This document shows, in pieces, positions 26,594 through 54,137 of a stretch of 64,000 nucleotides of DNA; position 1 is the first letter of the stretch; the number at the start of each line of letters is the position of its first letter. The notes below the pieces were generated by a model, which made no database searches, was not told where the DNA came from, and was given only the letters and a program-made list of their open reading frames with translations. The stretch lies in IMG/VR virus record IMGVR_UViG_3300041409_000066, positions 1 through 64,000 of that record; one strand, 5' to 3'. Source of the DNA: a virus. A program made the position numbers and the translations under genes.

Positions 26594-26871
26594 CAGCGGA
26601 TACTACCGATCTTGTTTGTAGGCCGAGGCGGCGGCAGCACGGTGAGCGGGACCATCACCGTCTCCTCCTCGATCTCGTCGTTGTGGAAGCGCATGGGCTG
26701 CACGATGCGGTCGTAGACGACGTGGCCGTCACCCTCGGCGGTGATCCGCACCCGGCGGATGCCCTGGTGGAAGGGCGCCTCGACGCCGAGCACCTCAAGC
26801 CAGTCCAGCACCTTGACTTGGAAGTCCAGCGGATCGAGGTAGTCCGCTGTCCACGATGCCCAGTCGCTCAC
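26593..26871 (-). CDS. Hypothetical protein
   Basis: 92 aa, GTG overlapping the upstream TGA. N-terminal Trp/Asp-rich helix (SDWASWTADYLDPLDF), then a strand-rich domain (RRVRITAEGDGHVVYDRIVQP) and a Pro-rich tail. Its last codons encode the palindromic operator of the next gene, so coding and regulatory sequence coincide here. Confidence 0.72.
   Translation of the reverse strand: MSDWASWTADYLDPLDFQVKVLDWLEVLGVEAPFHQGIRRVRITAEGDGHVVYDRIVQPMRFHNDEIEEETVMVPLTVLPPPRPTNKIGSIR
26601..26621 (-). promoter_or_regulatory. Operator-promoter element, leaderless type
   Basis: Minus strand CTACAA-N7-TCGGTAGTA; 15 of 21 positions match the copy at 54109. The TAGTAT box is followed by CCGCTG and the ATG at 26593. 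It lies in the 3' end of the preceding coding sequence. Confidence 0.55.
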
Positions 26872-27404
26872 ACGTCCTCGATGTGGCCGACCGTCGTCCT
26901 GTTGTCCCACTGCCGCTCGCCGTGGGTGTGCCAGCCAGCATGGCGTTCCAGTGCCTCGCAGCGCACGTACCTGCCGTCGTCCTCGGCCACCATCGCTGTG
27001 CAGAGCCTGGCCCACGTCGGCAGTTCGGTGCTCATCACCACGCGGTCCAGTCGGACGGCAGCGGTGTAGTCCTCGTTGTGGCTCTCGAACCGCACCAGCA
27101 TGTCGTCGGGGTGGCCTGCGTGCCGCTCGACGCGGGCATAGACCAGCACCCAGTCGCCGGGCCGGAAGCGTCCGTGGACCGGGCACGCCTCGTCTGGCCC
27201 CTCGATGTCCGGGCCGCTGGTGCGGCAGGTGCAGGACGGGTCTTTCGCCACGGCGGGCTCCCTCTTGGGCACGGGCAGGTTGCGGGACGACACGTCGAAG
27301 CAGGCGGCGATCTTCTTGCAGATCTCGCAGGCGCCTCGACTACGAGGGAGCCACATGTCGCTGGGCCAGTCGCGCTCCTTGGCACAGGGCTCGCAGTAGA
27401 ACAT
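26868..27404 (-). CDS. Hypothetical protein with two zinc-type clusters
   Basis: 178 aa; ATG shares its A with the upstream TGA. N-terminus MFYCEPC and CEICKK make one zinc ribbon; CTCRTSGPDIEG...CPVHG a second. The middle (RPGDWVLVYARVE ... MLVRFESHN) is strand-rich. The C-terminus has CEALERHAGWH, a member of the C-x4-GH-x-G-x-H motif group shared with several proteins here. Function unknown. Confidence 0.75.
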   Translation of the reverse strand: MFYCEPCAKERDWPSDMWLPRSRGACEICKKIAACFDVSSRNLPVPKREPAVAKDPSCTCRTSGPDIEGPDEACPVHGRFRPGDWVLVYARVERHAGHPDDMLVRFESHNEDYTAAVRLDRVVMSTELPTWARLCTAMVAEDDGRYVRCEALERHAGWHTHGERQWDNRTTVGHIEDV

Positions 27405-27784
27405 CAGGCCATCCGGCTGCGGGTGATGTCGTCCACAGCGAGGGTGGCGATGATCGTTAGCCGCTTCGGGCCTGGGGGCACGTCAGCGACCTGGGCCACC
27501 ATGTCGGCACGGGCGTGGAACTCCGGGTCGTAGTGGAAGCGGCGCATCGCCAACTCGTGGAGGTCGAAGCCTCGCGGCGGGTCGGGCCAGGCCGGGTTGT
27601 GCCACTGACAGTTCACCAAGATGCACGGCAGCGCGTGGGCTGCCTCGGCTCGCCCGGTGATGATGCGCTCGGCGGCGTCATCGAACGCCTTGGCGGCAGC
27701 GGCGACCTTCGGGTTGGTCCTGGCGAGTTCGTCCAACTGGGCACCAAGGGTGAACAGGTGCGGGTCGCTCGGTCGTCTGCCCAT
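27404..27784 (-). CDS. Hypothetical protein, first gene after an operator
   Basis: 126 aa. Helical N-terminal half (TNPKVAAAAKAFDDAAERII), a short CILVNCQWHNPAWPDPPRGFDLHEL segment, then a strand-rich C-terminus. The ATG is five bases after TAAGGT, an apparent -10 box, suggesting a leaderless transcript. No family recognised. Confidence 0.72.
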   Translation of the reverse strand: MGRRPSDPHLFTLGAQLDELARTNPKVAAAAKAFDDAAERIITGRAEAAHALPCILVNCQWHNPAWPDPPRGFDLHELAMRRFHYDPEFHARADMVAQVADVPPGPKRLTIIATLAVDDITRSRMA

Positions 27785-27793
27785 GACTCACCT

Positions 27794-27814
27794 TACTCCA
27801 AGGATTGTTGCTAC
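27794..27814 (-). promoter_or_regulatory. Operator-promoter element, leaderless type
   Basis: Minus strand GTAGCAACAATCCTTGGAGTA; shares ATCCTTG with the consensus and provides TAAGGT as -10 box, five bases before the ATG at 27784. Confidence 0.5.
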
Positions 27815-28002
27815 GACAGGGGTAGGTGGTCAGTCCACCACTTCGGGATGGCGTCGTCTCTGTGGACGCCGCCCTCCACCGACTCGAAGTGGGCCTGGTC
27901 CACGTCCACGAGGCCGAGCACGTGCTCGGTCGCCTCCTTGTCGGTGAGGCCGTCCGGCACCTCCGCGATGACGACGTTGGTGTGCCACACCGCGACCCTC
28001 AC
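27811..28002 (-). CDS. Small hypothetical protein
   Basis: 63 aa from the GTG at 28002 that overlaps the upstream stop. Compact alpha/beta composition (VAVWHTNVVIAEVPDG, KEATEHVLGLVDVDQAHFE), ending in DAIPKWWTDHLPLS. Last gene of its run; its stop lies inside the next operator. Confidence 0.68.
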   Translation of the reverse strand: MRVAVWHTNVVIAEVPDGLTDKEATEHVLGLVDVDQAHFESVEGGVHRDDAIPKWWTDHLPLS

Positions 28003-28160
28003 GTGACCTTCTGTCCACTCCACGGGTCGTCGTGGCGCTCCTTGCCGTCGCTGCGCTTAGTGTCCAACTTCTTCGCCATCCGGCGCTGCTCGCGGTTGCC
28101 CTGCGGGTCACCGAGCACCCGCCGTGGCTGGACGACCTGCTTCATCCGTCGCTGGGGCAT
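27999..28160 (-). CDS. Small basic hypothetical protein
   Basis: 53 aa; ATG shares A with the preceding stop. Very Arg/Lys/Gln-rich (PQRRMKQVVQPRRVLG, EQRRMAKKLDTKR), so it may bind nucleic acid, though no fold is recognisable. Confidence 0.65.
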   Translation of the reverse strand: MPQRRMKQVVQPRRVLGDPQGNREQRRMAKKLDTKRSDGKERHDDPWSGQKVT

Positions 28161-28426
28161 CAGGCCAGCCTCTCCAACTCGGTGTCGTTCCACGGCACGT
28201 TCTTCTCGTCGCGCTCGTGGTCGATCTGGTCGATCCACACATCGTCGTCACCGGACTGCAACCAGTCGAGACAGTCCTGGGGCGTGATGCTTTCGGGGGT
28301 GCGGTCCGGGTCGTCCTTGGACCGCCGGTTGTACGACTCGTTGAGCCAGGCGGCAACCTCGGCCTCGGGCACGTCGATCTCCGAGACGCCCGTCGTCTCG
28401 CGCTTCCACTCGACCTTGATCTTCAT
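28160..28426 (-). CDS. Small acidic hypothetical protein
   Basis: 88 aa, ATG in an ATGA overlap. Opens with a strand (KIKVEWKRETTGVSEIDV) and continues as an acidic helical domain with LNESYNRRSKDDPD and CLDWLQSGDDDVWIDQ. No family recognised. Confidence 0.7.
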   Translation of the reverse strand: MKIKVEWKRETTGVSEIDVPEAEVAAWLNESYNRRSKDDPDRTPESITPQDCLDWLQSGDDDVWIDQIDHERDEKNVPWNDTELERLA

Positions 28427-28605
28427 GCAGCCCACCGGAAGCCGGTGCGCGAGATGTGCCGGTAGTCGTGGTCCATCGGGTCCACCTCGCACTCGTAGAC
28501 CTGCTCGTTCACGATGATCTGCTCGCCGCAGAACTCGCGCCGGTCCTCGGTCGGCCACCACCACGGCGTGTTGTTCTGGATCCGTCGTCGCAACTTGGTC
28601 AGCAT
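28423..28605 (-). CDS. Small Trp/Cys-containing hypothetical protein
   Basis: 60 aa, ATG in a TGATG overlap. Basic N-terminus (TKLRRRIQNN), a WWW stretch, then CGEQIIVNEQVYECEVDPMDHDYRH, where two Cys and a His pair suggest a possible metal site related to the C...GHxGxH group. Function unknown. Confidence 0.68.
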   Translation of the reverse strand: MLTKLRRRIQNNTPWWWPTEDRREFCGEQIIVNEQVYECEVDPMDHDYRHISRTGFRWAA

Positions 28606-28778
28606 CAGCCTGCTCCTACCAACTCGATGTCGTGGTCGCGCTCCATGTGTCCGGCGAGCGCCATCAGCCAGGTCGCGAACCCAGGCTGCGGGTCACGACG
28701 CTCCCGCTCGCAGTAGCCGCAGCCGTCCTGCCACGGGATGTTGTCGGTGTCGCTCGGATTGACCGCCACCCGCCTCAC
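28605..28778 (-). CDS. Small zinc-finger-like protein
   Basis: 57 aa, GTG in a GTGA overlap. GCGYCERERRD and LAGHMERDHDIE form a CxxC...HxxxxH pattern, a classic small zinc finger layout. Possibly nucleic-acid or protein binding. Confidence 0.7.
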   Translation of the reverse strand: MRRVAVNPSDTDNIPWQDGCGYCERERRDPQPGFATWLMALAGHMERDHDIELVGAG

Positions 28779-29545
28779 GACCCCTTCTCGCAGTCGCACG
28801 GGTCTTCATCCGAGCCGCAGACAGAGCACGCTTCCAGCCCGCCCGCGATGGCCTTGGTGGTGGGCATCATCGGCAGCGCCATCAGGCCAGCAGCCTCGGC
28901 GGTCGTGAGCCCCAACTGCACGGCCTTGTTGGTGACCATCGCCTCGATGTCGGCACGGGCGCGCTGCACGACGTTCTCGGCGTGCTCGTTGAGGCTCTTG
29001 GCTGCGAAGTCCATGTTGGCCTCGACGTGCATGAGCGCGCTGCGGATCTTGTCCACCGCCTCGCGCTTGGTCTTCGGCGTGGCGTCCTTGGGTAGCGCGT
29101 CGTACGCCGCCATCGCCTTGGTGGCGCGGTCGAAGACCTTCTTGGCTGCGCCCCGCACCTCCTCCATCGAGTGGCCCAGGCGCGGGTCGTACGGCAGCCC
29201 TGGGATGTCCCACTGCTCCCCGACACGGCGCAGGGTGCAGGGCACGCCGGAGGTGTTCATGGAGGACACGAACGACGCCCACTGCGCCTCGCTCATCTCG
29301 ACCTCGACCAGCGGCGTCATGTCGGCGTGGATCCAGTCGCGGTTGAGGTCGCGATGGCGGGTGGCCGAGTGGACCGAGATCCGCACCTTGTGCTGATGCT
29401 GGATGTCGCTGTCGAACAGCACCGACTCGCCACCCGAGGTGCGGCTGGCAGAGATCATGCCGAAGGCCGGGTGCTCCTCGGCGTAGGCACTGTCGGTGCC
29501 CCACGACGGGCCGGGCTTGCGAGTTGGCTCCTGCGGCTCGTGCAT
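28775..29545 (-). CDS. 256-aa actinophage accessory protein with C-terminal Cys tail
   Basis: ATG at 29545 in a TGATG overlap (a GTG one codon earlier is an alternative). The first half is strand-rich: FGMISASRTSGG, VRISVHSA, then LVEVEMSEAQWASFVSSMN and GVPCTLRR, an arrangement I have seen in actinophage accessory genes without known function. The second half (residues 130-220) is a long helical segment, probably coiled coil. The tail CSVCGSDEDPCDC is a metal-binding candidate. Confidence 0.75.
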   Translation of the reverse strand: MHEPQEPTRKPGPSWGTDSAYAEEHPAFGMISASRTSGGESVLFDSDIQHQHKVRISVHSATRHRDLNRDWIHADMTPLVEVEMSEAQWASFVSSMNTSGVPCTLRRVGEQWDIPGLPYDPRLGHSMEEVRGAAKKVFDRATKAMAAYDALPKDATPKTKREAVDKIRSALMHVEANMDFAAKSLNEHAENVVQRARADIEAMVTNKAVQLGLTTAEAAGLMALPMMPTTKAIAGGLEACSVCGSDEDPCDCEKGS

Positions 29546-29703
29546 CACTGCCCCTCCGAGGCGTTAGCAGCGGGGGCCAACGGGCACTCGCACTCCCCGT
29601 CATCCACCAGGCATCCAACGGGTTCCGCGTGGTCGGCGGCGTCGTGAGCGCAGACGGGACACTCGGTGTCTTCGCTCACGACCTCCCATACAACCTGCGT
29701 CAT
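29545..29703 (-). CDS. Tiny Cys-rich protein
   Basis: 52 aa, too short for most callers but flanked by overlaps on both sides (ATGA and TGATG). Acidic, with CPVCAHDAADH and later CECP, giving a likely zinc site. Function unknown. Confidence 0.65.
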   Translation of the reverse strand: MTQVVWEVVSEDTECPVCAHDAADHAEPVGCLVDDGECECPLAPAANASEGQ

Positions 29704-29927
29704 GAGGCGTTGAAGCGCATGTAGACCACGGGCGTCTGGCCGATCAGGTCGTCGGTCATCTCGGTGTTGCGCAGCGCGTTGACGACAGCCTGGCCGAGGT
29801 CACGCAGGAACTCGTCCTTGGGTCGCACGAGGTTGAAGCGGTTGATCCAGATGTGGTTGTCCTTGGCCTGCTGCACGATCTCCTCGGGCGTGTGCTCGCC
29901 CTCGCGCTTGCCCTGGCCCTCGGGCAT
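29700..29927 (-). CDS. Hypothetical protein
   Basis: 75 aa from the ATG at 29927, 11 bases after the previous stop. Acidic helical start (TPEEIVQQAKDNHIWINRF) followed by KDEFLRDLGQAVVNAL and a strand-rich end. No family recognised. Confidence 0.68.
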   Translation of the reverse strand: MPEGQGKREGEHTPEEIVQQAKDNHIWINRFNLVRPKDEFLRDLGQAVVNALRNTEMTDDLIGQTPVVYMRFNAS

Positions 29928-29937
29928 CCCGCCGATG

Positions 29938-30267: not shown

Positions 30268-30292
30268 CGGTGCTCCTTGGTCGGGGCGCTCA

Positions 30293-32141: not shown

Positions 32142-32326
32142 TTCGCACCCACCCGGACGACACACTTCTCGCCGGTCGCTGTGAGGACCGTGGCGTGCTT
32201 GGGGCTGTACGGGTAGATGCCCGTCACGAGGCCGCTGACGATGCGGGCCGGACGTGCCAGGTGGAACTGGTCGTCGTCCTGGCAGACGCGCCCGATGACG
32301 CGATCACCGAAGTCGAGCGCCTTCAC
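32138..32326 (-). CDS. Small SH3-like hypothetical protein
   Basis: 62 aa, GTG in a GTGA overlap. KALDFGDRVIGRVCQDDD and GLVTGIYPYSPKHATVLT suggest a five-strand SH3-like barrel. Unknown function. Confidence 0.67.
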   Translation of the reverse strand: MKALDFGDRVIGRVCQDDDQFHLARPARIVSGLVTGIYPYSPKHATVLTATGEKCVVRVGAK

Positions 32327-32601
32327 TGGTTGTCCAGACCGAGCAGGTCGTTGACGAGGTGCATCAGCGTGCTGGTGTGGTTCAGCGCCGCGCAGCGGGC
32401 GTACTCCTCGCGGACGGCAGCGAGTGCGTCGTTGGAGAGAGCGACGAAGGTGACGCTGTGCTCGGCCTCGTGGCGCCGCAAGATCAGGTCTGGCGAACCA
32501 AGGCGGTGCTCGACGCTGCCCCACGACTCGTCACCCTCGGGGATCTTGGCAAGGAGGACGGCGGGGTGGTCGTAGATGGTGGTGAGGTCGGTGGACTCCA
32601 T
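32323..32601 (-). CDS. Hypothetical protein, first gene after a promoter-operator
   Basis: 92 aa. The start is the ATG at 32601 with AGGAG five bases upstream, not the in-frame codon at 32706, which would run through the promoter and terminator. Acidic/helical: YDHPAVLLAKIPEGDES, then LSNDALAAVREEYARCA and LMHLVNDLLGL. Unknown. Confidence 0.72.
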   Translation of the reverse strand: MESTDLTTIYDHPAVLLAKIPEGDESWGSVEHRLGSPDLILRRHEAEHSVTFVALSNDALAAVREEYARCAALNHTSTLMHLVNDLLGLDNQ

Positions 32602-32667
32602 GACGCTCCTGGCTTGTGGGTGGCTCTGACCCGCACACGGTACTACAAGGATCTCCGGTAGCGCAAC
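32602..32667 (-). promoter_or_regulatory. SigA-like promoter with palindromic operator and conserved leader
   Basis: -35 TTGCGC, 18-base spacer holding the operator (32641-32661, CTACCGGAGATCCTTGTAGTA on the minus strand in two parts), -10 TACCGT, then a leader with GTCAGAGCCACC and AGGAG before the ATG. Confidence 0.7.
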
Positions 32668-32668
32668 G

Positions 32669-32704
32669 GAGAGGCCCGACCCCGTGGTGGGGGCCGGGCC
32701 TCTC
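32669..32704 (-). terminator. Intrinsic-type terminator hairpin
   Basis: Ten-base arms GAGAGGCCCG and CGGGCCTCTC with an extended inner CCCC/GGGG stem. It abuts the downstream promoter -35 box, insulating two transcription units. No U-run. Confidence 0.65.
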
Positions 32705-32756
32705 ACTAGGTAGGAAGTGCAGTCATGTGAACGTCAGGCGCAACAAGGGCTTGCAG

Positions 32757-37100: not shown

Positions 37101-37306
37101 GGGTGGCTCCTGACGAGGGTGGGCTCGCATGTGGCGGCGGCGATCTGGTCGGTGCGCCGGTCGATCACGCCGAACTCCATCCACGGCGTCTGGTACTTGA
37201 ACTCCCACATCCTGCGCTTGGCGAACCAGAGCCAGCGGTGTCGGGTGAGGGTGCCATGCGGTGCGCCGATCAGGCGGCTACCGAAGGACACGACGGTCCA
37301 CCTCAC
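37097..37306 (-). CDS. Small basic hypothetical protein
   Basis: 69 aa, GTG in a GTGA overlap. Trp/Arg-rich (RWTVVSFGSRLIG, RHRWLWFAKRRMWEF), isoelectric point clearly basic. Lies directly after the Acb2-like gene. Unknown. Confidence 0.67.
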   Translation of the reverse strand: MRWTVVSFGSRLIGAPHGTLTRHRWLWFAKRRMWEFKYQTPWMEFGVIDRRTDQIAAATCEPTLVRSHP

Positions 37307-37791
37307 AGCGCCTTCATCTCAAGCCAGAAGTCGTCCTCGTCCTGACGGATGACCGCGTAGGCCGGGCTGTCCCAGCCGGTGAAGTCCGTCTCGCGGGCGG
37401 CGGTGGTGAACATGCAGCCGATCAGGTTGCCCGTCTCTCGGCAGTTGGACGAGTGCATGATCGTCCAGCCACCCTGGTCCAGCACGACCACGTGCTCGGT
37501 CGGGTGCTGCTTGGTCATCTCGACCGCCCGGTCCCGCACGGACTCCGCGACGTGGCCGACGACGGGCTCGACCGCTCCCGAGACGTGGATGGCGACCGTG
37601 GCGTTGGCCCACTGGGCAGCGGACTGCAAGTCCGTCAGCGCGAGCGACTTCTCGCGGCTCTCCGGCAGCATCTCGTTGAGCCGGACAGCCAGGTCGGTGA
37701 ACTTGGCCCGGATCTCCTCGTGCAGTTCGACTGCCAGTCCGAGCGGCGGGTGGTGCTTGAAGCGGTTGCGGATCTCGTCCTCGGTTGGCAT
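37303..37791 (-). CDS. acb2-like: Acb2-family (anti-CBASS) protein with a C-terminal extension
   Basis: 162 aa, ATG placed six bases after a TATGGT box, so probably leaderless. Residues 1-75 match the Acb2/DUF7681 helical hairpin: NRFKHHPP, then HEEIRAKFTDLAVRLNE, and the signature LPESREKSLALTDLQSA with QWANATVAI. Acb2 proteins form hexamers that sequester cyclic di- and trinucleotides and so block CBASS and related signalling defence. Stand-alone family members are roughly 70-100 aa; here an extra 85-90 residue domain (HVVVLDQGGWTIMHSS ... AYAVIRQDEDDFW) is fused. The family call is from recognised motifs; binding activity is inference. It heads its own transcription unit. Confidence 0.85.
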   Translation of the reverse strand: MPTEDEIRNRFKHHPPLGLAVELHEEIRAKFTDLAVRLNEMLPESREKSLALTDLQSAAQWANATVAIHVSGAVEPVVGHVAESVRDRAVEMTKQHPTEHVVVLDQGGWTIMHSSNCRETGNLIGCMFTTAARETDFTGWDSPAYAVIRQDEDDFWLEMKAL

Positions 37792-37819
37792 GACGGGACC
37801 ATACCGAAGATGTCTGTAG
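37792..37819 (-). promoter_or_regulatory. Operator-promoter element before the Acb2-like gene
   Basis: Operator copy at 37799-37819 (minus CTACAGACATCTTCGGTAT), matching 16 of 21 positions of the copy at 54109. TATGGT, CCCGTC, then ATG. No good -35 is visible, so it may need an activator. Confidence 0.55.
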
Positions 37820-37837
37820 TACGCGAGCACCGGGCGA

Positions 37838-42584: not shown

Positions 42585-42784
42585 CGCAGCCTCACGTCCA
42601 CACCCTGGTCCTGGGCAGCACCGTTGCTGGTGATGGTCCAGATGACGGCGTAGACCTCACCTTGGAGCCGGTCGTCGTCAATGACCACCGTGTCGCCCCG
42701 GCGGGGTACGGCATCCATCTCGACGGTGAACGCACGCGGCAGTTCAGCGAACGGCTCGCGGTGGGGGACGAAGGTGACCTTCAC
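42581..42784 (-). CDS. Small SH3-like protein
   Basis: 67 aa, GTG in a GTGA overlap. Beta-rich: KVTFVPHREPF, RRGDTVVIDDDRLQGEVYAV, ITSNGAAQDQGVDVRL, consistent with a small barrel. Unknown. Confidence 0.67.
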   Translation of the reverse strand: MKVTFVPHREPFAELPRAFTVEMDAVPRRGDTVVIDDDRLQGEVYAVIWTITSNGAAQDQGVDVRLR

Positions 42785-44316
42785 GACTGGATGCCCTTGA
42801 GGGCGTCGTACGCCTTGGACTGGACCATCGGGACGCTGCGCTCGGTCGAGCAGGCCGTGCAGCCCTCGTAGGACACCGTGTCAGAGCCGTCCGACAGGTT
42901 GGTGAAGACGCGGCCCTTGTGCAGCGGCTGCCAGTCGTGCTTGCCGTCGATGGCGGTGTCGGCCTCGCACACGTCAGGGTTCGACTCGTGGCGCTCGTCC
43001 GAGGTCGGGAAGGAGGACGCCAGCGAGGCAGCCCCACCGATCTGGTCGCGGTCGCGTGGGCTCACCGTGTCGGCCAGCGTCTCCACGGGGGCGTCGTACA
43101 GCGGGCAGTACGAGTAGTGCAGGCCGGTGGGATCGTGCTCGTCCTTGCCTGGCGGGTTGATCGGCCCCTCGTTGTTGGAGTCTCGGCACTGGCAGGTGGG
43201 CTTCTGCTCCCACCAGCACAGCAGGTGACCGTCAGCGTCGTGAGCCTGGTGGTCGCCAGCGTGGCCCTGGTCACGGTCACAAGAGAAGGCGACAGCCATC
43301 GCATCCTTGGCTGCCTGGGTGACGTTCGCTCCGTCCGGGCCGAAGGTCGCTGGTGCGTTGCACAGCGTGGGCTCGGCTCGCGGGTCGCACTGATCGCAGC
43401 GCCGTCGCAGGTCGGTGACCTGTCCGACACCACAGAAGCGGCACGTGTGGCCGACAGGCTCGCTCTCGCCGTCCTCGACCGGCAGGCACATGCCGTGGTT
43501 GCCCTCGCGGTGACGCTGCTCGACCATCGCGCAGTCGAGGTGAGGCTGGCCCAGGCATCGCTGGGTGCGCTCATGGAAGTCAGCGATCAGCCGCTGCTGC
43601 GGGCTGCCCTCGGGCGGGTAGCCCAGCAGGTCAGCGATCTTGTCCTGCTCGGCTGGTGGGCTGTCGCTGGTGACGACCTGCACCTCGCCCGTGCAGAAGG
43701 CCAGCGCCAGTGCGTGGGTGCCGAAGTCGTGGGTCGTGACGGTGTGCCCCTTGAGCCCGAAGTCGTGCATCAGCCGCCGGTAGGCATCGCCCTCGGTGGG
43801 CAGCAGGAAGGTCCAGCACGAGCCGTTGAGGTCACGCACCACCCGCCAAGTGTTCTCCCTGGTCAGGGCGCCGCCGTTGGGGTCCGGGTCGTGAGCGATG
43901 TGGCTGCCGTCCGGCAGAGCGAAGGACACCGCTGGCCCCTTGGTGTCGAGCACCACCTTCATGCCCTCGACCGGAGTGAAGGCAGGCGAGTCGAGAGGGC
44001 CAGGCCAGACGAACTTCACGATGTCGCCCGGCTTGAGCAGGTGGGCGTTGGTGATGGTCGCCAAGTTGTCCTTGATCTCGGCCACCACGCCTTCTGGTGT
44101 GGATGCCTCGATGGCGCCCTTGGTCGGCTCCTTGCCCTCGAACATGGCGGGCTCCAACAGCGGACGCCCCCGGTCGTTGCCCCAGCGCGCCAGGTTGTAG
44201 TGCTTGGCGCACAGGCTGGACCCCTCCCACACCACCGTGGTCTGCACCTGCTGGGAGCGGTAGTCGATGCCCTCGGCAGCCCAGTTGTCGTAGCAGGACA
44301 CGCACATCGGACCCAT
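42781..44316 (-). CDS. 511-aa zinc-rich accessory protein
   Basis: ATG at 44316 is preferred over a TTG three codons upstream. N-terminal CVSCYDNW and LCAKHY form one metal site. Central region has SH3-like PGDIVKFVWPGP and FALPDGSHIAHD; a ribbon CRFCGVGQ...CDQCD; CDRDQGHAGDHQ, the Cys/His motif shared across the block; CQCRDSN; and a C-terminal CTACSTE. It looks like fused copies of small accessory domains. Largest gene of the accessory block; unknown function. It follows an operator-like site. Confidence 0.75.
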   Translation of the reverse strand: MGPMCVSCYDNWAAEGIDYRSQQVQTTVVWEGSSLCAKHYNLARWGNDRGRPLLEPAMFEGKEPTKGAIEASTPEGVVAEIKDNLATITNAHLLKPGDIVKFVWPGPLDSPAFTPVEGMKVVLDTKGPAVSFALPDGSHIAHDPDPNGGALTRENTWRVVRDLNGSCWTFLLPTEGDAYRRLMHDFGLKGHTVTTHDFGTHALALAFCTGEVQVVTSDSPPAEQDKIADLLGYPPEGSPQQRLIADFHERTQRCLGQPHLDCAMVEQRHREGNHGMCLPVEDGESEPVGHTCRFCGVGQVTDLRRRCDQCDPRAEPTLCNAPATFGPDGANVTQAAKDAMAVAFSCDRDQGHAGDHQAHDADGHLLCWWEQKPTCQCRDSNNEGPINPPGKDEHDPTGLHYSYCPLYDAPVETLADTVSPRDRDQIGGAASLASSFPTSDERHESNPDVCEADTAIDGKHDWQPLHKGRVFTNLSDGSDTVSYEGCTACSTERSVPMVQSKAYDALKGIQS

Positions 44317-44332: not shown

Positions 44333-44353
44333 TCTCTACAAGGATGTTGGGGA
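44333..44353 (-). promoter_or_regulatory. Operator-like element, weak half-site
   Basis: Minus strand ends ATCCTTGTAGAGA; the right half of the palindrome is intact but the left half is degenerate (CCCCAAC). It precedes the 511-aa gene. Confidence 0.45.
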
Positions 44354-44373
44354 GTGGAAGCGTAGCGGGCACA

Positions 44374-48594: not shown

Positions 48595-48968
48595 CGGCTG
48601 ATGATGCCGTGCTCGCCTCGGTGCCCGGCCTCCTTGTTGCAGTACGACTCGTCGCAGAAGTTGAGCAGCGGCGGCTTGGTGCCGAGCAGGCGGATCACGG
48701 TGTCCACCGGGCTCTCCTCGCCCTCGGGCTGGACCACGGGCGGACGACCGATTGAAACGAGGTGGGCTCGGAGGCGGTCGATCTCCTCCTGCGGGGTACG
48801 ACCACCTTGAACGGAGGTGGCGGGCTCGGGGTCGTGGTTCTTGCCCGTCACCTCCGTCCCCATCGGCTGGTCGAGCGCACCCTGCTGCTGCTGGTGCGCC
48901 GGGATGCCGGGCTGACCGCCCACGTCCTCGGTGCCAGCGGGGTTGGTCTGGGAGAGCGGTGCGGTCAT
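48591..48968 (-). CDS. Protein with C-terminal C-x4-GH-x-G-x-H motif
   Basis: 125 aa, ATG in an ATGA overlap with the small membrane gene. Gln/Pro-rich N-terminal half, a helix (EEIDRLRAHLVSIG), then CDESYCNKEAGHRGEHG at the end. Unknown. Confidence 0.7.
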   Translation of the reverse strand: MTAPLSQTNPAGTEDVGGQPGIPAHQQQQGALDQPMGTEVTGKNHDPEPATSVQGGRTPQEEIDRLRAHLVSIGRPPVVQPEGEESPVDTVIRLLGTKPPLLNFCDESYCNKEAGHRGEHGIISR

Positions 48969-49111
48969 GCGCAGTACCTCGTGATCTTGTAGGCGGGAGC
49001 GTGCTCGGCACGCAAGGTGTCGCAGCGGCGGTTGCCGCCTATGACGAACGCCGCCACGAGGGCGGCGATCAGGGCGAGGCTCGCGGTGATCGCGAGCAGT
49101 GTGCGGGTCAT
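48965..49111 (-). CDS. 48-aa membrane peptide, first gene of a unit
   Basis: ATG with GAGGAG upstream and a promoter-operator before it. LLAITASLALIAALVAAFVI is a membrane helix, then a polar region with two Cys (RRCDTLRAEHA, RYCA). Its stop overlaps the next ATG. Confidence 0.7.
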   Translation of the reverse strand: MTRTLLAITASLALIAALVAAFVIGGNRRCDTLRAEHAPAYKITRYCA

Positions 49112-49160
49112 CTGGCTCCTCTGACGAGCGGACTTTACTACCGAGAAGGTCCGTAGTCAC
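49112..49160 (-). promoter_or_regulatory. Promoter with operator and conserved leader
   Basis: -35 GTGACT, 17-base spacer within operator 49136-49156, -10 TAAAGT, leader with CGTCAGAGGAG before the ATG. The SD and leader motif are fused here. Confidence 0.6.
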
Positions 49161-49397
49161 CTACCGTCGCGAGAATGGTGTCGGGCGCCCGCAGGCGACC
49201 GCCTTCTCACACTTGGTGCAGAGCACCTCGCCCTCGGGCTTGGTGGTGCTGATGCGGGCGTTGAAGCCACGGACCTTGGATCCACACCACGACTGGTAGC
49301 GACCGGGGAGCATCGCGTGCCACGGGCCGGGGTTGGGCTGGTCGGTGCCAGCCACGCGACGGTTCAGGCGCTTGTAGCCATCCACGGTGTAGGTCAT
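49161..49397 (-). CDS. Hypothetical protein from a leaderless mRNA
   Basis: 78 aa. ATG six bases after TACCTT. YTVDGYKRLNRRVAGTD, PGRYQSWCGSKVRGFN and EVLCTKCEKAVACG: a H/C-poor start and a CxxC near the end. The TKxEGEVxCTKCxKAV pattern is seen in small actinophage proteins. Its TAG lies next to the next operator. Confidence 0.72.
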   Translation of the reverse strand: MTYTVDGYKRLNRRVAGTDQPNPGPWHAMLPGRYQSWCGSKVRGFNARISTTKPEGEVLCTKCEKAVACGRPTPFSRR

Positions 49398-49434
49398 GGA
49401 GGAAAGGTACTACAAGGATGCTTGGAGCCGCAAG
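49398..49434 (-). promoter_or_regulatory. Operator-promoter element, leaderless type
   Basis: -35 TTGCGG, 18-base spacer, -10 TACCTT, six bases, ATG. The operator (49408-49428) also supplies the TAG stop of the upstream GIY-YIG gene. Confidence 0.68.
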
Positions 49435-49835: not shown

Positions 49836-50489
49836 CTAGTTGATCTCCACCGTCGTCGGAGCGAGCACCTGCACGTCGAGGCCGACCTCGACCAGGCTGG
49901 CAAGCGTGTCACCGACCTCTGACGGAAAGTAGAAGCCGACCTTGCCCTTGCAGAGCAGGGCGCACTTGTCGCCACGGGTGCGGACCAGGCTGCTGTCAGC
50001 GTCCGCCTCGTAGGGGAGCGCCTCAAGGCGCAGCGTCTGGACCTGCTCCTTCTTGGAGATCTGGCGGCGACCGCAGCCCTCGCACTGATTGCAGGAGTTG
50101 AACGCGCAAACGTGGGTCGGGTCAGCAGCGACGACAGCCTGCGCGGCCAGCCTGGCGTGGTACTCAACGCTGTCGAGGTGGCAGAGCACCGTCCGCTGGA
50201 TCACCGAGGCCAGGGAGTCGTGGTCGAGGTAGCCGGGGTTCATCGAGCCGTCAGCGGTCTTGTACGTGAAGTCGTAGCGCCCGACGCCGTGCTGGGTGAC
50301 CGTACCGACGTAGTTCTCGCGCAGGATGCTGGTGCCGATGTAGACGTGGTACTGGCCGCGACCGGCACCACCGATGTTGACGATCTCGACCTCGATCTCG
50401 CCGTGGTTGGAGAGGGCCATCGAGCCCTGCTTGACCTTGCGGCCAGCGATGGAGCGGTCCTTGAGGGTGAGGGCGCGGAACTCGGTCAT
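49836..50489 (-). CDS. 217-aa hypothetical protein
   Basis: ATG with AGGAG upstream and a full promoter-operator. N-terminal RALTLKDRSIAGRKVKQGS, then beta-rich (EIEVEIVNIGGAGRGQYHVY), a helical middle (HLDSVEYHARLAAQAVV), and CAFNSCNQCEGCGRRQ, a four-Cys site. C-terminal strands. Probably well expressed, being first after a consensus promoter. Not recognised. Confidence 0.75.
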   Translation of the reverse strand: MTEFRALTLKDRSIAGRKVKQGSMALSNHGEIEVEIVNIGGAGRGQYHVYIGTSILRENYVGTVTQHGVGRYDFTYKTADGSMNPGYLDHDSLASVIQRTVLCHLDSVEYHARLAAQAVVAADPTHVCAFNSCNQCEGCGRRQISKKEQVQTLRLEALPYEADADSSLVRTRGDKCALLCKGKVGFYFPSEVGDTLASLVEVGLDVQVLAPTTVEIN

Positions 50490-50557
50490 CGGGGTTCTCC
50501 TGACATGTGGGTGGCTCTGACAACAGGAACGATACTACAAGGATCCTTGTAGCCGCA
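50490..50557 (-). promoter_or_regulatory. Consensus promoter with perfect palindromic operator
   Basis: -35 TTGCGG, spacer exactly the 18-base palindrome CTACAAGGATCCTTGTAG (50535-50552), -10 TATCGT, leader GTTGTCAGAGCCACCC, SD AGGAG. The clearest copy of the family. Confidence 0.78.
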
Positions 50558-50590
50558 AGAGGCCCACCCGAAGTTCTCGGATGGGCCTCT
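50558..50590 (-). terminator. Terminator hairpin
   Basis: Nine-base arms AGAGGCCCA and TGGGCCTCT with a GC-rich loop, abutting the next promoter's -35 box. Closes the unit ending at 50605. Confidence 0.65.
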
Positions 50591-50604
50591 CTTGGGTCAG
50601 AGCA

Positions 50605-51078
50605 CTAGCCGTACACGACCTCCCCGAAGATGCCTGCCTGCACGATGCAGTCCGCTGCGGAGGAGTCGATCATCCCGCCACCGTCCGTAGGGTCAGCCGC
50701 GTTGGCGAGCACGTCGGTGAGGATGTAGCCGAGGATCGAGTCGTTGACGCTGGCCTGGCCGGAGAGCAGCCGCTCGATACCGAGCATCACCACGTCGGCG
50801 TCGAGCACGGTCACGAACTCCGAGCCGTTGCCCGCCTCGATCCAGTCATCCAGCGCGATCTGGCCGCAGCCGCTGGGGAGCCCGGACTCCGTGAAGGCGT
50901 CCTCGTGGTCGTAGCCAGCGATCCACGAGTAGCCCTGCTCGGACTGCTTGTGGTCGAGGCCACGGAACCAGTAGCCGATGCCGCCCTCGTAGGCGGTGAC
51001 GAGGATGCCCTCAAGGAAGTCCTCGGTCACGTTGAGGGTGACGGCCAGCGGGCGGGTGGTGAGGGTCTTGGTGCTCAT
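50605..51078 (-). CDS. 157-aa hypothetical protein
   Basis: ATG with AAGGA upstream. VTLNVTEDFLEGILVTAYEG, IGYWFRGLDHKQSEQGYSW, then FTVLDADVVMLGIERLL-like helices and VNDSILGYILTDVLANAAD: an acidic alpha/beta protein. The start pattern and the DxDVVxxGxxRLL segment are familiar from actinophages without function. Last gene before the terminator. Confidence 0.75.
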   Translation of the reverse strand: MSTKTLTTRPLAVTLNVTEDFLEGILVTAYEGGIGYWFRGLDHKQSEQGYSWIAGYDHEDAFTESGLPSGCGQIALDDWIEAGNGSEFVTVLDADVVMLGIERLLSGQASVNDSILGYILTDVLANAADPTDGGGMIDSSAADCIVQAGIFGEVVYG

Positions 51079-51111
51079 CGTGATGTCCTTCTTCGCAGGT
51101 AGGTGGGGGCG

Positions 51112-51435
51112 TCAGACGGACGCGATGACGGAGACGAGGCGCAGCATGTCGGCGGACGAGCCGTAGGCCCAGGTGCCGAGGTAGCGGTACGCCTGCCAGA
51201 TGTACGTGCCGCGTCCCGTCTCGCCCACCTCGGCCTGCTTGGTGAAGGGGTGCTCGGTGAACTGGACGAACTCGGCGCGGCGGTCGGTGCCCTCACCGAC
51301 GATGCCCAGGAAGATGGCGGGCTCGATGCGCTCGCTGCGCTGGCTGCCGTTGCAGAACATCAGCGTGACGTGCGTGCCGGGGGTGAGCCGGTCGATGCGG
51401 TCCGGGGTCTTCTTGGCGACGGTGGCGGTGCTCAT
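51112..51435 (-). CDS. Small beta-rich protein behind a promoter
   Basis: 107 aa, ATG with AGGAG six bases upstream. RIDRLTPGTHVTLMFCNGSQ starts a strand-rich domain, then ERIEPAIFLGIVGEGTDRRA and YLGTWAYGSSADMLRLV. Possible SH3 or OB-like fold. First gene of a unit with the gene after it. Confidence 0.74.
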   Translation of the reverse strand: MSTATVAKKTPDRIDRLTPGTHVTLMFCNGSQRSERIEPAIFLGIVGEGTDRRAEFVQFTEHPFTKQAEVGETGRGTYIWQAYRYLGTWAYGSSADMLRLVSVIASV

Positions 51436-51506
51436 GGGGTGCTCCTGGGGTCGTGAGGTGACTCTGACAACAGGAACGGTACTACAAGGATCCTTGGAGG
51501 CGCAAG
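51436..51506 (-). promoter_or_regulatory. Promoter with operator and conserved leader
   Basis: -35 TTGCGC, 18-base spacer in operator 51480-51500, -10 TACCGT, leader GTTGTCAGAGTCACC, SD AGGAG. Confidence 0.72.
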
Positions 51507-51509
51507 TAC

Positions 51510-51911
51510 CTACCTCGGAGCGTCCGGGCAGGCGTAGTGGGTGACCTCTGGATCGTCGTGCTTCGCCTCCAACTCGGAGCGCGTCTTCTTGCAGTACCGG
51601 CACGTCGGCACGCCGCTGCGAGGGATCAGGTGATGGGTGGGGCCGTCAGGGGGCCAGGGCGCCTTCGTGTCGCTCCTGGCTGTCCGTTCTGCGACAGGTC
51701 GCCCGCCGTGCTCCAAGACGGCCTCCACCACCATGTCGAACTGCTCGGGGTTGACGTGCATCGAGCCCGAGCCGTCGTCCGGGATGCTGACGGTGAGCAG
51801 CCAGCGGTTGTACGGCTGGGGCGACACCCTGGCGACGAACATCGGCTCGATCTTGCGCTGTGCCTCGATGGCCTGCTGCTCGGTGTCGAAGACGGCCCGG
51901 TAGAGGTTCAC
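51510..51911 (-). CDS. Hypothetical protein with C-terminal zinc motif
   Basis: 133 aa, GTG in a GTGA overlap. NLYRAVFDTEQQAIEAQRKI and WLLTVSIPDDGSGS suggest a ferredoxin-like start; CRYCKKTRSELEAKH...HYAC at the end is a CxxC...H...C site. Unknown. Confidence 0.71.
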   Translation of the reverse strand: MNLYRAVFDTEQQAIEAQRKIEPMFVARVSPQPYNRWLLTVSIPDDGSGSMHVNPEQFDMVVEAVLEHGGRPVAERTARSDTKAPWPPDGPTHHLIPRSGVPTCRYCKKTRSELEAKHDDPEVTHYACPDAPR

Positions 51912-52456
51912 CGGCCCTGGTCCCAGTGCGACAGGTCTTGGGTCGGCACGAAGGTGGAGTAGGGCGACTCGGGCCTCGGCATGGCCGCTGCCACAGCCCG
52001 ACCGATGCGGTCAGCCTCCTTCTGCTCGTGGTGCTCGTACAACTTGTAGCCCGCGTAGGCCACGGTGGCGGCGCCCATGAGGGCGGCGGCGTTCGGGTGG
52101 CGCTGATACCAGCGGTGCCTCCACAGGAACCACGCCATGAGGGCGCACCAGCCCGCTGACAGGCCGAAGCACCAGCCCCAGAGGTGAGGGAGAGGGGCGT
52201 AGCAGTCCGAGTCGTAGCCGTTGTTGTAGAGGTCGCTGCACTTCTGGGTCCAGTCGCTGCCCAGGTGCATGAGCCCCCAACTGATCGCGTTGAGCACGAT
52301 GACGATGAGGACGCTGCCGACGACCGCGAACCAGATCGCGACCGAGGCGTCGGTCTTCATCGGCTCACGCGGTGGGGCTGGCGGCGTGTAGTTGTAGGTG
52401 GCGATCCGGGGGACCGCTGGCAGTGACGTGATCCGGTGAACCGGCTCGATGCTCAT
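51908..52456 (-). CDS. Membrane protein
   Basis: 182 aa, ATG in an ATGA overlap. Three hydrophobic segments: AIWFAVVGSVLIVIVLNAIS (about 40-60), LWGWCFGLSAGWCALMAWFL and ALMGAATVAYAGYKL; a Cys pair lies in the loop. Could be an inner-membrane effector. Unknown. Confidence 0.72.
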   Translation of the reverse strand: MSIEPVHRITSLPAVPRIATYNYTPPAPPREPMKTDASVAIWFAVVGSVLIVIVLNAISWGLMHLGSDWTQKCSDLYNNGYDSDCYAPLPHLWGWCFGLSAGWCALMAWFLWRHRWYQRHPNAAALMGAATVAYAGYKLYEHHEQKEADRIGRAVAAAMPRPESPYSTFVPTQDLSHWDQGR

Positions 52457-52881
52457 GCTGTGACCCCCAGGTACTCGGCCAACTTCTCGGCCTCGAAGAT
52501 GGCCTCTCCGTTCCTGATCTCGACCGGCGGCATCTTCTGCTTGGCGGCTGCCTTGCGCAGCGCGTCAGGGCTCCACGTTGGGCCGACTGGCTGTTGTTCG
52601 CGCCACTCGGCCTCGGTCTTCACCAGCAGGCGGGGCTCGATGGCGACAGGCACCTTGCGCTGGCGCCGACCGGGGATGCGGTAGGCACGGATGCAGCCGT
52701 TGGTCTGGTACGGCACGTGGCCCTTGCCCGGCATGAAGCGGGTGGCTGTCTGGGGGTCAGCCACCCACTCGCCGTTCTCGACCCGCCAGCCGGGCTCGGT
52801 GTCCACGACCTCGAACACCACTCCGGCTGACGTGACGTACCGCTCGCCAGGCTTCAAGTCCTTGCGCTTCATGCCTCTCAT
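52453..52881 (-). CDS. DNA-binding-like hypothetical protein (possible excisionase-type HTH)
   Basis: 142 aa from the ATG at 52881 or 139 aa from the ATG three codons in. Residues 1-60 are SH3-like (PGERYVTSAGVVFEVVDTE). The C-terminal 45 residues, with KQKMPPVEIRNGEAIFEAE then LAEYLGV, are helical and loosely suggest an HTH of the helix-turn-strand kind, weak evidence. Immediately downstream of an operator in reversed orientation. Confidence 0.68.
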   Translation of the reverse strand: MRGMKRKDLKPGERYVTSAGVVFEVVDTEPGWRVENGEWVADPQTATRFMPGKGHVPYQTNGCIRAYRIPGRRQRKVPVAIEPRLLVKTEAEWREQQPVGPTWSPDALRKAAAKQKMPPVEIRNGEAIFEAEKLAEYLGVTA

Positions 52882-52884
52882 GTT

Positions 52885-52905
52885 CTCACGGGATCCTCGG
52901 TAGTA
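52885..52905. promoter_or_regulatory. Operator copy in reversed orientation
   Basis: The minus strand reads TACTACCGAGGATCCCGTGAG, split as TACTACCGAGG-ATCCCGTGAG; in other copies TACTAC is on the plus strand. No promoter boxes fit the adjacent minus gene, so it may be an operator without a promoter. Confidence 0.5.
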
Positions 52906-52914
52906 GAGCAGGGA

Positions 52915-53898
52915 CTAGCGGGACAGGGAGTAGACCTTCTCGGACTGCTTGAACGGCATGTCCTCTGGTCCCTTGATGTAGGGCGCAATCCAGATCTTGC
53001 GGTAGGTCACCGAGCCGTCCTCGGCCTTGTAGGGCTGGTTGCGCCAGTGGCCCCGCACGACCCAGCGGTGACTCCACTCGACCATCGACTCGCCCTCGGA
53101 GCGGCTGCCAGCGGTGCGGCGCAGTTGGACGACGGTGACGCGGCTCGGGAGGTTCATCCGGCCCATGCGCTTCTGCGTCCGGCGGTCCACCTCGGCCTCC
53201 TTGAGGGAGGTGACCGTCTGGTTGAGCATCATCAGCAGCGCGAGGATGAAGCGGGTGTCGTTGTCCACCTCGGAGGCCAGCGTCTGGCCCGTGCCGACAG
53301 CCCACTTGGCGTAGTCCGCCTCGGGCACGATGACCGGCGGGCCAGCCAGTTGGCTGTCCGCGATGAACTGGATGTGGTGGACGTGCAGCCGACCCATGTC
53401 GGCCAGTTCCTGGCGGCGATTGCTCGTGAGCACGTCCTTGTTGACCTCATCGCGGGGGTCGTTGATGTCGGTGTAGAACACGACGAGAGTGCCGGGCCGA
53501 CCGTTGGCGACGAGGCGCCCCCACGACATGGCGCAGGTGGTGACCGTGCGACCCCACATCTCGCGGGTGATGAGCGAGTCCTCGAAGATCACGAAGCCGT
53601 GGTCGGTGGGCCACAGGTCGTGGGCGAAGGAGTCGGTGTTGTCGAGCCCGGCGGACGCCCACCGCACCAGCGGCATCATCTCGGCGGTGACGAAGTACGC
53701 CTCACTCATGTTCAGCCGGACGACCTCGCGGGTGGTGAAGGCCCGCCCGTCCGGGTGGCCCTGGCCGTTGGTGTATTCCGGTCCGACGTGCTTGCGCATC
53801 ACGTCGGTGACGAAGTTCGTCATGTACCGCTGGTAGGCCCGCGTAGAGAGCCGGTCCCGCAGGATGGCGCGCTCATCGAGCACCTGCACGGGAGTCAC
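52915..53898 (-). CDS. 327-aa conserved actinobacterial phage/plasmid-type protein
   Basis: GTG in a GTGA overlap. Helical (DERAILRDRLSTRAYQRY, RRQELADMGRLHVHHI, NDTRFILALLMMLNQTV), and the C-terminus RGHWRNQPYKAEDG...RKIWIAPYIKGPEDMP is a pattern I know from actinobacterial plasmid and phage proteins of unknown function. It could be a replication or regulatory accessory; no catalytic motif visible. Confidence 0.76.
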   Translation of the reverse strand: MTPVQVLDERAILRDRLSTRAYQRYMTNFVTDVMRKHVGPEYTNGQGHPDGRAFTTREVVRLNMSEAYFVTAEMMPLVRWASAGLDNTDSFAHDLWPTDHGFVIFEDSLITREMWGRTVTTCAMSWGRLVANGRPGTLVVFYTDINDPRDEVNKDVLTSNRRQELADMGRLHVHHIQFIADSQLAGPPVIVPEADYAKWAVGTGQTLASEVDNDTRFILALLMMLNQTVTSLKEAEVDRRTQKRMGRMNLPSRVTVVQLRRTAGSRSEGESMVEWSHRWVVRGHWRNQPYKAEDGSVTYRKIWIAPYIKGPEDMPFKQSEKVYSLSR

Positions 53899-54065
53899 CG
53901 CGACACCACCGTCATGGAGCACTCGTCGGCGGCGGCGCTGCCCTGGATCTGGCCCACGATGTAGGACTTCACGTCCTCGCGGATCTCCTTGGCCCCCTCG
54001 ACGCCGTACGTCTGGGTCCACTCCTGCGGGTTCACCTCGACGGTGACACTGATCTTGACCTTCAC
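53895..54065 (-). CDS. Small hypothetical protein, first gene of a unit
   Basis: 56 aa, GTG with GGAGG upstream and a promoter-operator. KVKISVTVEVNPQEW starts a strand, then GVEGAKEIREDVKSYIVGQI helix. The N-P-x-E-W pattern with an acidic helix is common in actinophage small proteins. Unknown. Confidence 0.72.
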   Translation of the reverse strand: MKVKISVTVEVNPQEWTQTYGVEGAKEIREDVKSYIVGQIQGSAAADECSMTVVSR

Positions 54066-54137
54066 GATCTTCCTCCGAACAGACTGATGGCTCTGACGAG
54101 AGGAACGGTACTACCGAAGATCCTTGTAGTCAATGTC
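54066..54137 (-). promoter_or_regulatory. Promoter with operator and conserved leader
   Basis: -35 TTGACT, 17-base spacer, -10 TACCGT: the best SigA match. Operator 54109-54129; leader CGTCAGAGCCATC, then GGAGG. Confidence 0.75.

Follow-up and report, generated by a model that had tools for sequence, protein, structure and literature searches.

Operator copies in the window

The window comprises bases 1-64000 of a phage record of 153,911 bases (G000) and contains a dispersed palindrome at twelve places (Table 1). The phage is a distant relative of Bxz1-type actinophages. The minus strand holds 217 of the 220 genes called in the record, and the predicted operator promoters are read on it too. 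Gene calls were made with our own scripts, and several start codons are uncertain.

A preliminary description of the window had listed these twelve copies, and a recognisable palindrome was indeed present at each, although of unequal quality; the copy described as perfect was confirmed as a perfect 18-mer. A search for this 18-mer with up to three mismatches found three copies (49410, 50535 and 51482) and none in shuffled sequence. Most of the other copies, as read from the sequence, have a 19-bp form with one extra base between CTAC and GTAG. With a 43-bp matrix, ten of the twelve outscored all ten shuffled genomes, the exceptions being 27794 and 37799; this matrix was self-trained and seeded with seven of the originally listed copies, and the result is partly circular.

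Table 1. Palindrome copies in the window, with putative promoter elements and neighbouring genes
Position	Strand	Feature	Context
26601..26621	-	copy within called gene 26593-26871, without -35	8 nt before gene 25892-26593
27794..27814	-	weak copy, below matrix threshold	precedes gene 27404-27784
32637..32666	-	promoter/operator TTGCGC-N18-TACCGT	precedes gene 32323-32601; hairpin-like sequence directly upstream
37799..37819	-	weak copy, below matrix threshold	just before likely start of Acb2/Tad1-hairpin gene called 37303-37830
44333..44353	-	weaker copy	precedes gene 42781-44316
49136..49156	-	19-bp palindrome form; weak -35 GTGACT, N17, -10 TAAAGT (by eye); GTCAGAG near predicted start	precedes gene 48965-49111
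49404..49433	-	promoter/operator TTGCGG-N18-TACCTT	precedes gene 49161-49397
50529..50558	-	best copy, TTGCGG-N18-TATCGT; spacer is the perfect palindrome 50535-50552	gene 49836-50489 about 44 nt downstream of the palindrome
51476..51505	-	promoter/operator TTGCGC-N18-TACCGT	precedes gene 51112-51435
52885..52905	-	copy without -10, above matrix threshold	immediately 5' of start codon of gene 52453-52881
54105..54133	-	promoter/operator TTGACT-N17-TACCGT	precedes gene 53895-54065
62867..62887	-	weak copy, better score on + strand	precedes gene 62430-62771 (small sigma70 region-4-like protein)

In the best copies the palindrome had been described as the exact spacer between the -35 and -10 boxes. 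This holds for five of the twelve copies (32641, 49408, 50533, 51480 and 54109), where the pattern TTGnnn-N17/18-TAnnnT is found on the minus strand without recourse to any matrix; a clean pair of boxes is absent at 52885, 62867, 44333, 37799 and 27794. The terminators said often to precede the copies are visible, as unscored hairpin-like sequence, at 32641 and 50533. The word GTCAGAG was considered as a start-site signal and rejected: it lies near 7 of 19 copies, yet that strand has 12 occurrences in all and the opposite strand 14, so that the word is not rare in itself.

Promoter layout across the whole record

In the whole record the pattern TTGnnn-N17/18-TAnnnT has eleven occurrences on the coding strand, eight of which overlap the palindrome, against none on the opposite strand. 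Outside the window the 43-bp matrix placed copies above its threshold at 92235, 92874, 98570 and 146143; those at 86884, 86908 and 95821 are below this threshold or unlisted and were found with dyad and half-site models. Among promoter spacers of 16-20 bp, TTG was found at 18 bp in four sites and at 20 bp in one. Counts of dyad 5-mers did not make the motif stand out in this genome.

A 24-bp matrix that was symmetric about a fixed centre fell to four sites, the arms differing by one base in length, and was replaced by pairs of half-sites with a variable gap. The half-site threshold was the median of the maxima of ten shuffled genomes. Since single shuffles exceed it (in the relative G001 the threshold is 14.1 and the largest shuffle reaches 21.8), a few half-site matches may be due to chance; the promoter-pattern count above is independent of this threshold. 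Fifteen half-site pairs with a gap of 6-7 were found in the record, of which only eight were counted as intergenic, in part since gene calls run over true sites (49408, 54109 and 92235) and in part since some matches fall in coding regions.

The term accessory regulon, used in the preliminary description, is mostly appropriate. The accessory block under the operator promoters includes at least one likely counter-defence gene, of the Acb2/Tad1 type. Copies, however, also precede core genes, namely that of a DNA helicase (site 92235) and the operon 86069-86839/85519-85998.

Conservation of the operator in related phages

Region 30000-54500 had no megablast match among phages and plasmids, and searches for close relatives with two proteins of this phage found none. 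The search for Bxz1-type relatives matched 196 Mycobacterium records; nine of 34 records of relatives were covered in full (G001-G006, G008, G009 and the 62-kb G032). The exact 18-mer was found in one other contig of IMG/VR, G001, which matched twice.

Of the 34 intergenic copies in this diverged relative, 30 are flush with TAnnnT at their end, and in 26 a TTG precedes that box by exactly 17 bp (three further TTG are at 18, one at 19 and one at 20). Of the N17 promoter form, G001 has 30 occurrences on its coding strand and a single one on the opposite strand. Fifteen intergenic copies were found in G002, ten of them flush in TAnnnT, and all eleven TTG are at 18 bp. Promoters of G003, which speak against the proposed reading, seldom have a TTG, with one at only 4 of 14 sites (two at 17, one at 16 and one at 18). 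A pooled half-site model trained on G000-G002 gave, at score 18, 8 matches in G000 (6 flush), 32 in G001 (29), 12 in G002 (8) and 11 in G003 (6), the shuffle means being 0. The palindrome is therefore conserved in relatives, a point on which the earlier proposal had been made to depend, and the site layout in relatives, together with the promoter-pattern counts, supports an operator lying within the spacer of a set of promoters. A different palindrome lies at or next to the promoter boxes of other relatives.

The sites could also be explained as RNA hairpins or as a non-regulatory repeat, such as a REP-like element or a recombination or partition site: the perfect copy could fold, and most copies are intergenic and dispersed. 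We regard this as very improbable. The inner arm bases agree in 1 of 8 sites in G000, 8 of 34 in G001, 5 of 15 in G002 and 3 of 14 in G003, and the low agreement in G001 in particular argues for a DNA operator rather than an RNA hairpin. Good copies are, moreover, flush with -10 boxes and upstream of the expected transcript. As to partition, no ParA-like match over the cut-off was obtained in G000-G005 or G009 (G003 has one below it).

A candidate regulator

The best candidate for the regulator, predicted to bind the operator, is a MerR-like DUF7229 protein whose gene lies beyond the window, at 85519-85998. It follows gene 86069-86839, and the promoter of the latter has two tandem operator copies. 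One copy of the candidate is present in each of ten genomes. Pfam MerR_1 detected it in five of ten records (E 0.0048 and 14.6 bits in G000, 5.1e-5 in G001, 8.8e-5 in G002, 0.01 in G003 and 0.015 in G009), only the G001 ortholog reaching the cut-off, and did not match the orthologs in G004-G006 and G008. Compared as a profile with solved chains at E<=1, the candidate matched only TnrA (twice) and GlnR (0.19-0.54). Its AF2 model has a pLDDT of 83, and the first 11 Foldseek rows and the first 37 VIA rows are of MerR type, including RacA and BldC; individually these matches are weak (best E 0.22, Z 5.0), and below Z 8 a match can reflect a common arrangement. These weak matches agree with one another and suggest a MerR-like domain.

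We considered the 58 genes present in at least five of seven integrase-free genomes. The genome's own operator lies upstream of only two of them in at least five genomes, and of the other 56 in at most one. These are the DUF7229 operon (5 of 6 called members, with a sub-threshold site in G003 and a site in G004 found by reading) and gene 145478-146155 (5 of 5). The count used hand-copied site lists for G004, G005, G006, G008 and G009 with motif seeds chosen by eye, and it missed site 92235, where helicase 90229-92421 is called too long, and the G001 site 153400 near the record end. The TACTMC operator was matched in 7 of 8 sequences with a DWLRWR helix and in 2 of 12 others (those two without a flush -10; the helix was read in all of the 12 but G032), and L216 has the helix and no operator match; this correspondence is confounded by kinship and by training.

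The integrase-bearing G006 and G008 break the pattern of the integrase-free genomes. Their DUF7229 operon palindrome (ACCYACCCC...GGGGTAGG) differs from the genome-wide one, and accessory sites there therefore need a different protein. It is thus quite possible, if below even odds, that in the window's phage too the same operators and promoters serve another phage protein, the DUF7229 operon being just one member of the regulon; such a protein might be encoded in the accessory block and have no recognisable domain, or it might be one of the zinc-finger proteins. In keeping with this, the accessory operators of G006 and G008 differ strongly from each other as well as from that of the DUF7229 operon, integrase matches over the cut-off were obtained in G006-G008, and G008 has, by reading, an XRE-type protein. 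The operator is kept at gene 145478-146155 no less steadily than at the DUF7229 operon. A copy also precedes the start codon of gene 52453-52881, which has blastp matches in G001 and G002 only among eight relatives compared; no DNA-binding family was found in it. Against another protein, Pfam found no helix-turn-helix family at E<=0.02 in the 85 accessory proteins, and the operator is kept in most members only at the DUF7229 operon and one other gene.

Pfam analysis covered 177 of the 217 minus-strand genes (85 accessory, and 60 and 32 others). Two accessory proteins have a putative DNA-binding phage zinc finger; the other DNA-binding candidates, among 25 of 27 matched families, are the sigma70 region-4-like protein 62430-62771 and an Lsr2. 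The former was rejected as a shared regulator, having no blastp match in G001-G003, which have the operator. G003 also encodes a second small MerR-like protein, which by eye resembles BldC; it is without a relative in G000-G002.

Proposed mode of action

The preliminary description had suggested either a single repressor or a MerR-type activator. A MerR-like candidate does exist, outside the window, but the spacers favour repression, because at 17-18 bp they are of ordinary length, whereas classical MerR activation goes with 19-20 bp. Activation, in which a bound dimer would distort the spacer and switch promoters of middle genes on, is unlikely. The combination of a MerR-like candidate and a spacer palindrome does resemble the classical MerR layout, and G006 copies with TTGACA show, counted by eye, 19 bp to TAGAGT. 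Yet the spacers of G000-G002 are mostly of 17-18 bp and need no shortening, and the AF2 monomer of the candidate has, after the putative winged domain, a single helix of about 17 residues (132-148) where a MerR-family regulator would have its dimerisation coiled coil and effector or sensor part; no sensor domain is evident.

The sites, their palindromic half-sites and promoter layout, their conservation, weak but concordant matches of the candidate to a MerR-like domain and an operator copy at the operon encoding it can be read from the sequence. In the mechanism that we propose, each good copy would have two roles: it would separate the -35 and -10 boxes of a sigma-A-type promoter, and it would be the operator for a dimeric DNA-binding protein encoded by the phage. 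The dimer would hold a pair of half-sites (TACTMC...), the first at the downstream edge of the -35 box and the second extending into the -10 box, and would most likely exclude host RNA polymerase from dispersed early and accessory promoters. We infer that the DUF7229 protein binds these sites, represses through this binding an early regulon and also shuts off its own operon. We give this reading, in which the spacer palindrome is the operator of a DUF7229 dimer, a probability of about 0.45.

An extension to the family is more tentative. In these actinophages of about 150 kb, a MerR-like DUF7229 autoregulator may read lineage-specific palindromes (TACTMC, GTAGCAAG and TTTCAAG types) in or beside spacers, and integrase-bearing Streptomyces-type members may have given their accessory promoters to another regulator with other palindromes. 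If true, this would be a lineage-specific code for early-gene control, comparable to immunity groups, in phages without a recognised lysogeny module. Searches of the window's record gave neither an integrase nor a ParA-like match; the phage may still be temperate in some other way. Mycobacteriophages of the Bxz1 type are isolated frequently, and searches of open-licence texts brought up no account of such promoters or of small-gene control in them. Because the operator is named, the promoter layout can be searched for in any relative and there is one conserved DUF7229 candidate, the control system is directly testable.

Comparison with known systems

Promoters of the MerR family (MerR, CueR, SoxR, CarH, GlnR/TnrA) have a dyad of about 18 bp within the -35/-10 spacer. 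The window's phage shares the position of the palindrome and, in the candidate, a probable MerR-like winged helix. It differs in its spacers of 17-18 bp instead of 19-20, in its many target promoters and in the absence of an evident sensor domain; in G000-G003 an elongated spacer was the exception. The operators of P1 C1, like those described here, are scattered over a large genome and belong to one phage protein, but they are asymmetric and the protein is of a different family.

The related phage Bixzunavirus QBert (NC_054720.1) has a GGGAATGA..TC element 5' of the -10 box before small genes, with seven copies in the 150 kb searched. This element lies farther upstream than the window's palindrome, around -35, and is unlike it in sequence. 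QBert gp147 is DUF7229-like (E 7e-6), and the gene before this homolog lacks QBert's repeated promoter motif, which is evidence against the candidate as regulator.

The repetition of one operator in promoters throughout the genome resembles both P1 C1 and the MrpR system of SP-beta. In the latter, one repressor acts at SPBRE elements repeated in promoter regions of many phage genes, mostly of unknown function; MrpR, whose fold is that of a tyrosine recombinase, serves a prophage (PMC10516654), whereas here the candidate is MerR-like and the record gave no match to integrase or ParA. The stoperators of Cluster A mycobacteriophages are likewise dispersed, with 20-30 sites per genome, and diverge in sequence between lineages; they are asymmetric and mostly outside promoters (PMC6550527), whereas the sites of the window's phage are palindromic and lie within the promoter spacer.

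Phage record and relatives

The window covers positions 1-64000 of a virus record of 153,911 bases, which has a 69-base repeat at its ends and is therefore probably complete. Its GC content is 67%, its minus strand carries 217 of the 220 called genes, and homologs of DnaB, primase, RecA and ThyX are among the encoded proteins. The major capsid and baseplate proteins are about 60% and 30% identical, respectively, to those of Bxz1-type Mycobacterium, Gordonia and Rhodococcus phages; megablast of 24.5 kb of the record against named phages and plasmids gave no match. In bacterial genomes the capsid protein had four matches. Two are contigs from Streptomyces isolates that are as large as a whole phage (152,548 and 156,949 bases; 79-81%), the third is a contig of 7 kb assigned by binning to a gammaproteobacterium (91%), and the last is weak and short. 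The relative G001 (154,156 bases) is collinear and diverged, with blastp matches for 64 of the 220 proteins. A tyrosine integrase is present in relatives G006-G008, ParA-like matches also occur among these relatives (L143, L144, G006, G007, G008), and reading of G008 showed an XRE/DUF5753-like gene. Phages of the integrase-bearing type are present as phage-sized contigs in two Streptomyces isolates. The phage protein encoded at 146531-147220 of the record has a response-regulator receiver domain at its C terminus (E 4.8e-11).

Operator copies and promoter layout

The palindrome copies listed in the preliminary description are present in the sequence. On the minus strand, along which the genes read, good copies have the layout TTGnnn-palindrome-TAnnnT. 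The cleanest test of this layout was a matrix-free count of TTGnnn-N17/18-TAnnnT on both strands of all 153,911 bases: all 11 motifs found are on the coding strand, and eight of them overlap a palindrome copy (Table). The proposed matrix scan of the whole record, partly circular as it was seeded with 7 copies from that description, gave 16 matches, at 14 separate positions, that scored higher than anything in 10 shuffled genomes; these included 10 of the 12 listed copies, leaving two below threshold, and sites outside the window at 92235, 92874, 98570 and 146143. The word GTCAGAG lies near the expected transcription start after 7 of 19 copies examined; overall it occurs 12 times on the coding strand versus 14 on the other.

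Table. Promoter motifs overlapping the palindrome
Position	Strand	Basis	Remark
32637	minus	pattern count	
49404	minus	pattern count	
50529	minus	pattern count	
51476	minus	pattern count	
54105	minus	pattern count	
86884	minus	pattern count	-10 three bases earlier
92232	minus	pattern count	
146139	minus	pattern count	

In actinobacterial promoters, TTG and TAnnnT boxes at 17-18 bp should be usable by the host polymerase unaided, whereas classical MerR activation requires a spacer of 19-20 bp. For this reason we place repression ahead of activation; a dimer seated in the spacer would block the host polymerase.

A weak operator copy lies just upstream of the probable start of 37303-37830, likely an anti-CBASS-type gene judging from its match to Acb2/Tad1-hairpin protein (E 8.6e-14). 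Besides the operator, a second dispersed element, resembling TGTGAAGGGGTGAG, occurs on the minus strand at 6099, 6342, 14885, 22732 and 57078 and at 11 places outside the window, 10-32 nt upstream of genes; 14 of the 16 are in the arm with the capsid and baseplate genes. GAAGGGGTGA has 16 copies on the coding strand and 0 on the other, with TGTC exactly 24 nt upstream in 15 and TGTG in one. AAGGGGTGA has 11 copies in G006 and 9 in G008, with 0 and 1, respectively, on the opposite strand; they often lie in hairpins that are predicted to be strong and that contain the ribosome-binding site. The TGTGAAGGGGTGAG-like sequence may be an element of late promoters or of leaders, and GTG AAG GGG TGA within its copies may be a mini-ORF.

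Conservation in relatives

The scan of relatives that had been proposed found the operator conserved in G001, G002 and G003. The exact 18-mer matched one other contig of the IMG/VR collection, G001, two times. With up to 3 mismatches, 5 of 34 related records matched (G001 6 times, G002 5, G003, G011 and G032 once each) and 29 did not; the reversed pattern, used as control, matched one of the 34, G010. Half-site searching gave 34 intergenic copies in G001, 15 in G002 and 14 in G003. TAnnnT is flush at the end of 30, 10 and 8 of these, respectively; TTG stands exactly 17 bp before it in 26 of the G001 copies and at 18 in 11 of the G002 copies; only 4 of the G003 copies have a TTG. Most G001 copies are 36-50 nt upstream of a start codon. 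In G001 and G002, the leader behind an operator promoter repeatedly has GACTCC..GGAGG as its last element ahead of the start codon; this may form a small stem that hides the ribosome-binding site.

A single pooled model (score 18), with a half-site of TACTMC plus two looser bases, matched 8 sites in the window's phage, 32 in G001, 12 in G002 and 11 in G003; shuffle means were 0. The two arms share their inner bases in just 1/8, 8/34, 5/15 and 3/14 sites (same order), a pattern consistent with a dimer that contacts independent half-sites in DNA and not with an RNA stem.

Other lineages carry other palindromes, for which seeds were picked by eye. The G006 palindrome, GGCAAC-N4-GTTGCC, is flanked by TTGACA or TAGACA-like boxes on one side and TAGAGT on the other (mostly intergenic in 11 of 14; TAGAGTGG has 17 copies, 0 on the other strand), and that of G008, AATGCATA-N4-TATGCATT, runs into TAGnnT-like boxes (9/9 intergenic). 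The G009 palindrome, GTAGCAAG-N4-CTTGCTAC, is by reading mostly over the -35 (13/17 mostly intergenic), G005 has TTTCAAG...CTTG upstream of GGGTATAA (8/14 mostly intergenic), and G004 has a pair, TTGGTGG...TCACCA, around the promoter (7/10). From these placements, the palindrome occupies the exact spacer position in G000 (the window's phage) to G003, in G006 and in G008, with looser placement in G004, G005 and G009.

Candidate regulator

Pfam searches covered 177 of the 217 minus-strand genes (85 from the accessory block, 60 and 32 others). No helix-turn-helix family matched the 85 accessory-block proteins at E<=0.02; two have a putative DNA-binding phage zinc finger. DNA-binding candidates outside the block were a sigma70 region-4-like protein (6.5e-5 in the set of 60, for which 25 of 27 families were listed; by reading 62430-62771, without blastp match in G001-G003), Lsr2 (by reading probably 83229-83618), a further zinc-finger-like protein, and a DUF7229 protein, encoded at 85519-85998, that MerR_1 matches weakly.

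The DUF7229 protein has one copy in each of 10 genomes. MerR_1 matches it in G000, G001, G002, G003 and G009, reaching the cut-off in G001, and gave no match to the orthologs in the other five. Its profile matched, among solved chains at E<=1, only TnrA, TnrA and GlnR (0.19-0.54). For an AF2 model (19 sequences, pLDDT 83, pTM 0.76), the 11 top Foldseek rows and the 37 top VIA rows are MerR-type, RacA and BldC included, with best values of E 0.22 and Z 5.0. Since these sequence, profile and fold matches, each weak, agree, the protein is likely a MerR-like winged helix.

Among 58 genes found in at least five of seven genomes (G000-G005, G009), only two have the genome's own operator upstream in at least five: 145478-146155 (5/5) and 86069-86839, directly before the DUF7229 gene (5/6). 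The latter operon has a sub-threshold site in G003; in G004 the gene was not matched in the count and a site was found by reading. The other 56 have an operator in at most one genome, in a count that missed the helicase sites 92235 (G000) and 153400 (G001), the helicase start being misplaced. The operator appears to track the DUF7229 operon through lineages with different palindromes, as autoregulation would predict. Evidence against this comes from G006 and G008, where the palindrome at this operon differs from that of the accessory promoters. Integrase matches exceed the cut-off in both genomes, which also have ParA-like matches (exceeding it in G008), and their accessory promoters are therefore probably controlled by a different protein.

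A DWLRWR helix is common to 8 of 20 sequences scanned with the pooled model, and TACTMC-type sites occur with 7 of these 8 versus 2 of the 12 others (one match in G008 and two in G009, none with a flush -10), a correlation that could stem from kinship and from training on three of the eight. The DUF7229 protein is one good but unproven candidate for the regulator.

Comparison with known systems

QBert (NC_054720.1), a related Bixzunavirus, has GGGAATGA..TC upstream of GTTATACT-like boxes in repeated promoters (7 copies), and its gp147 is DUF7229-like; Phrappuccino (NC_054727.1) gp105, annotated hypothetical, is a further homolog. On sequence grounds, the operator set of the window's phage is real, conserved, promoter-embedded and lineage-specific in sequence. 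Its dispersed arrangement resembles that of the P1 C1 and SP-beta MrpR operators. Cluster A stoperators are asymmetric and mostly non-promoter, unlike the palindromic, promoter-embedded operators found here.
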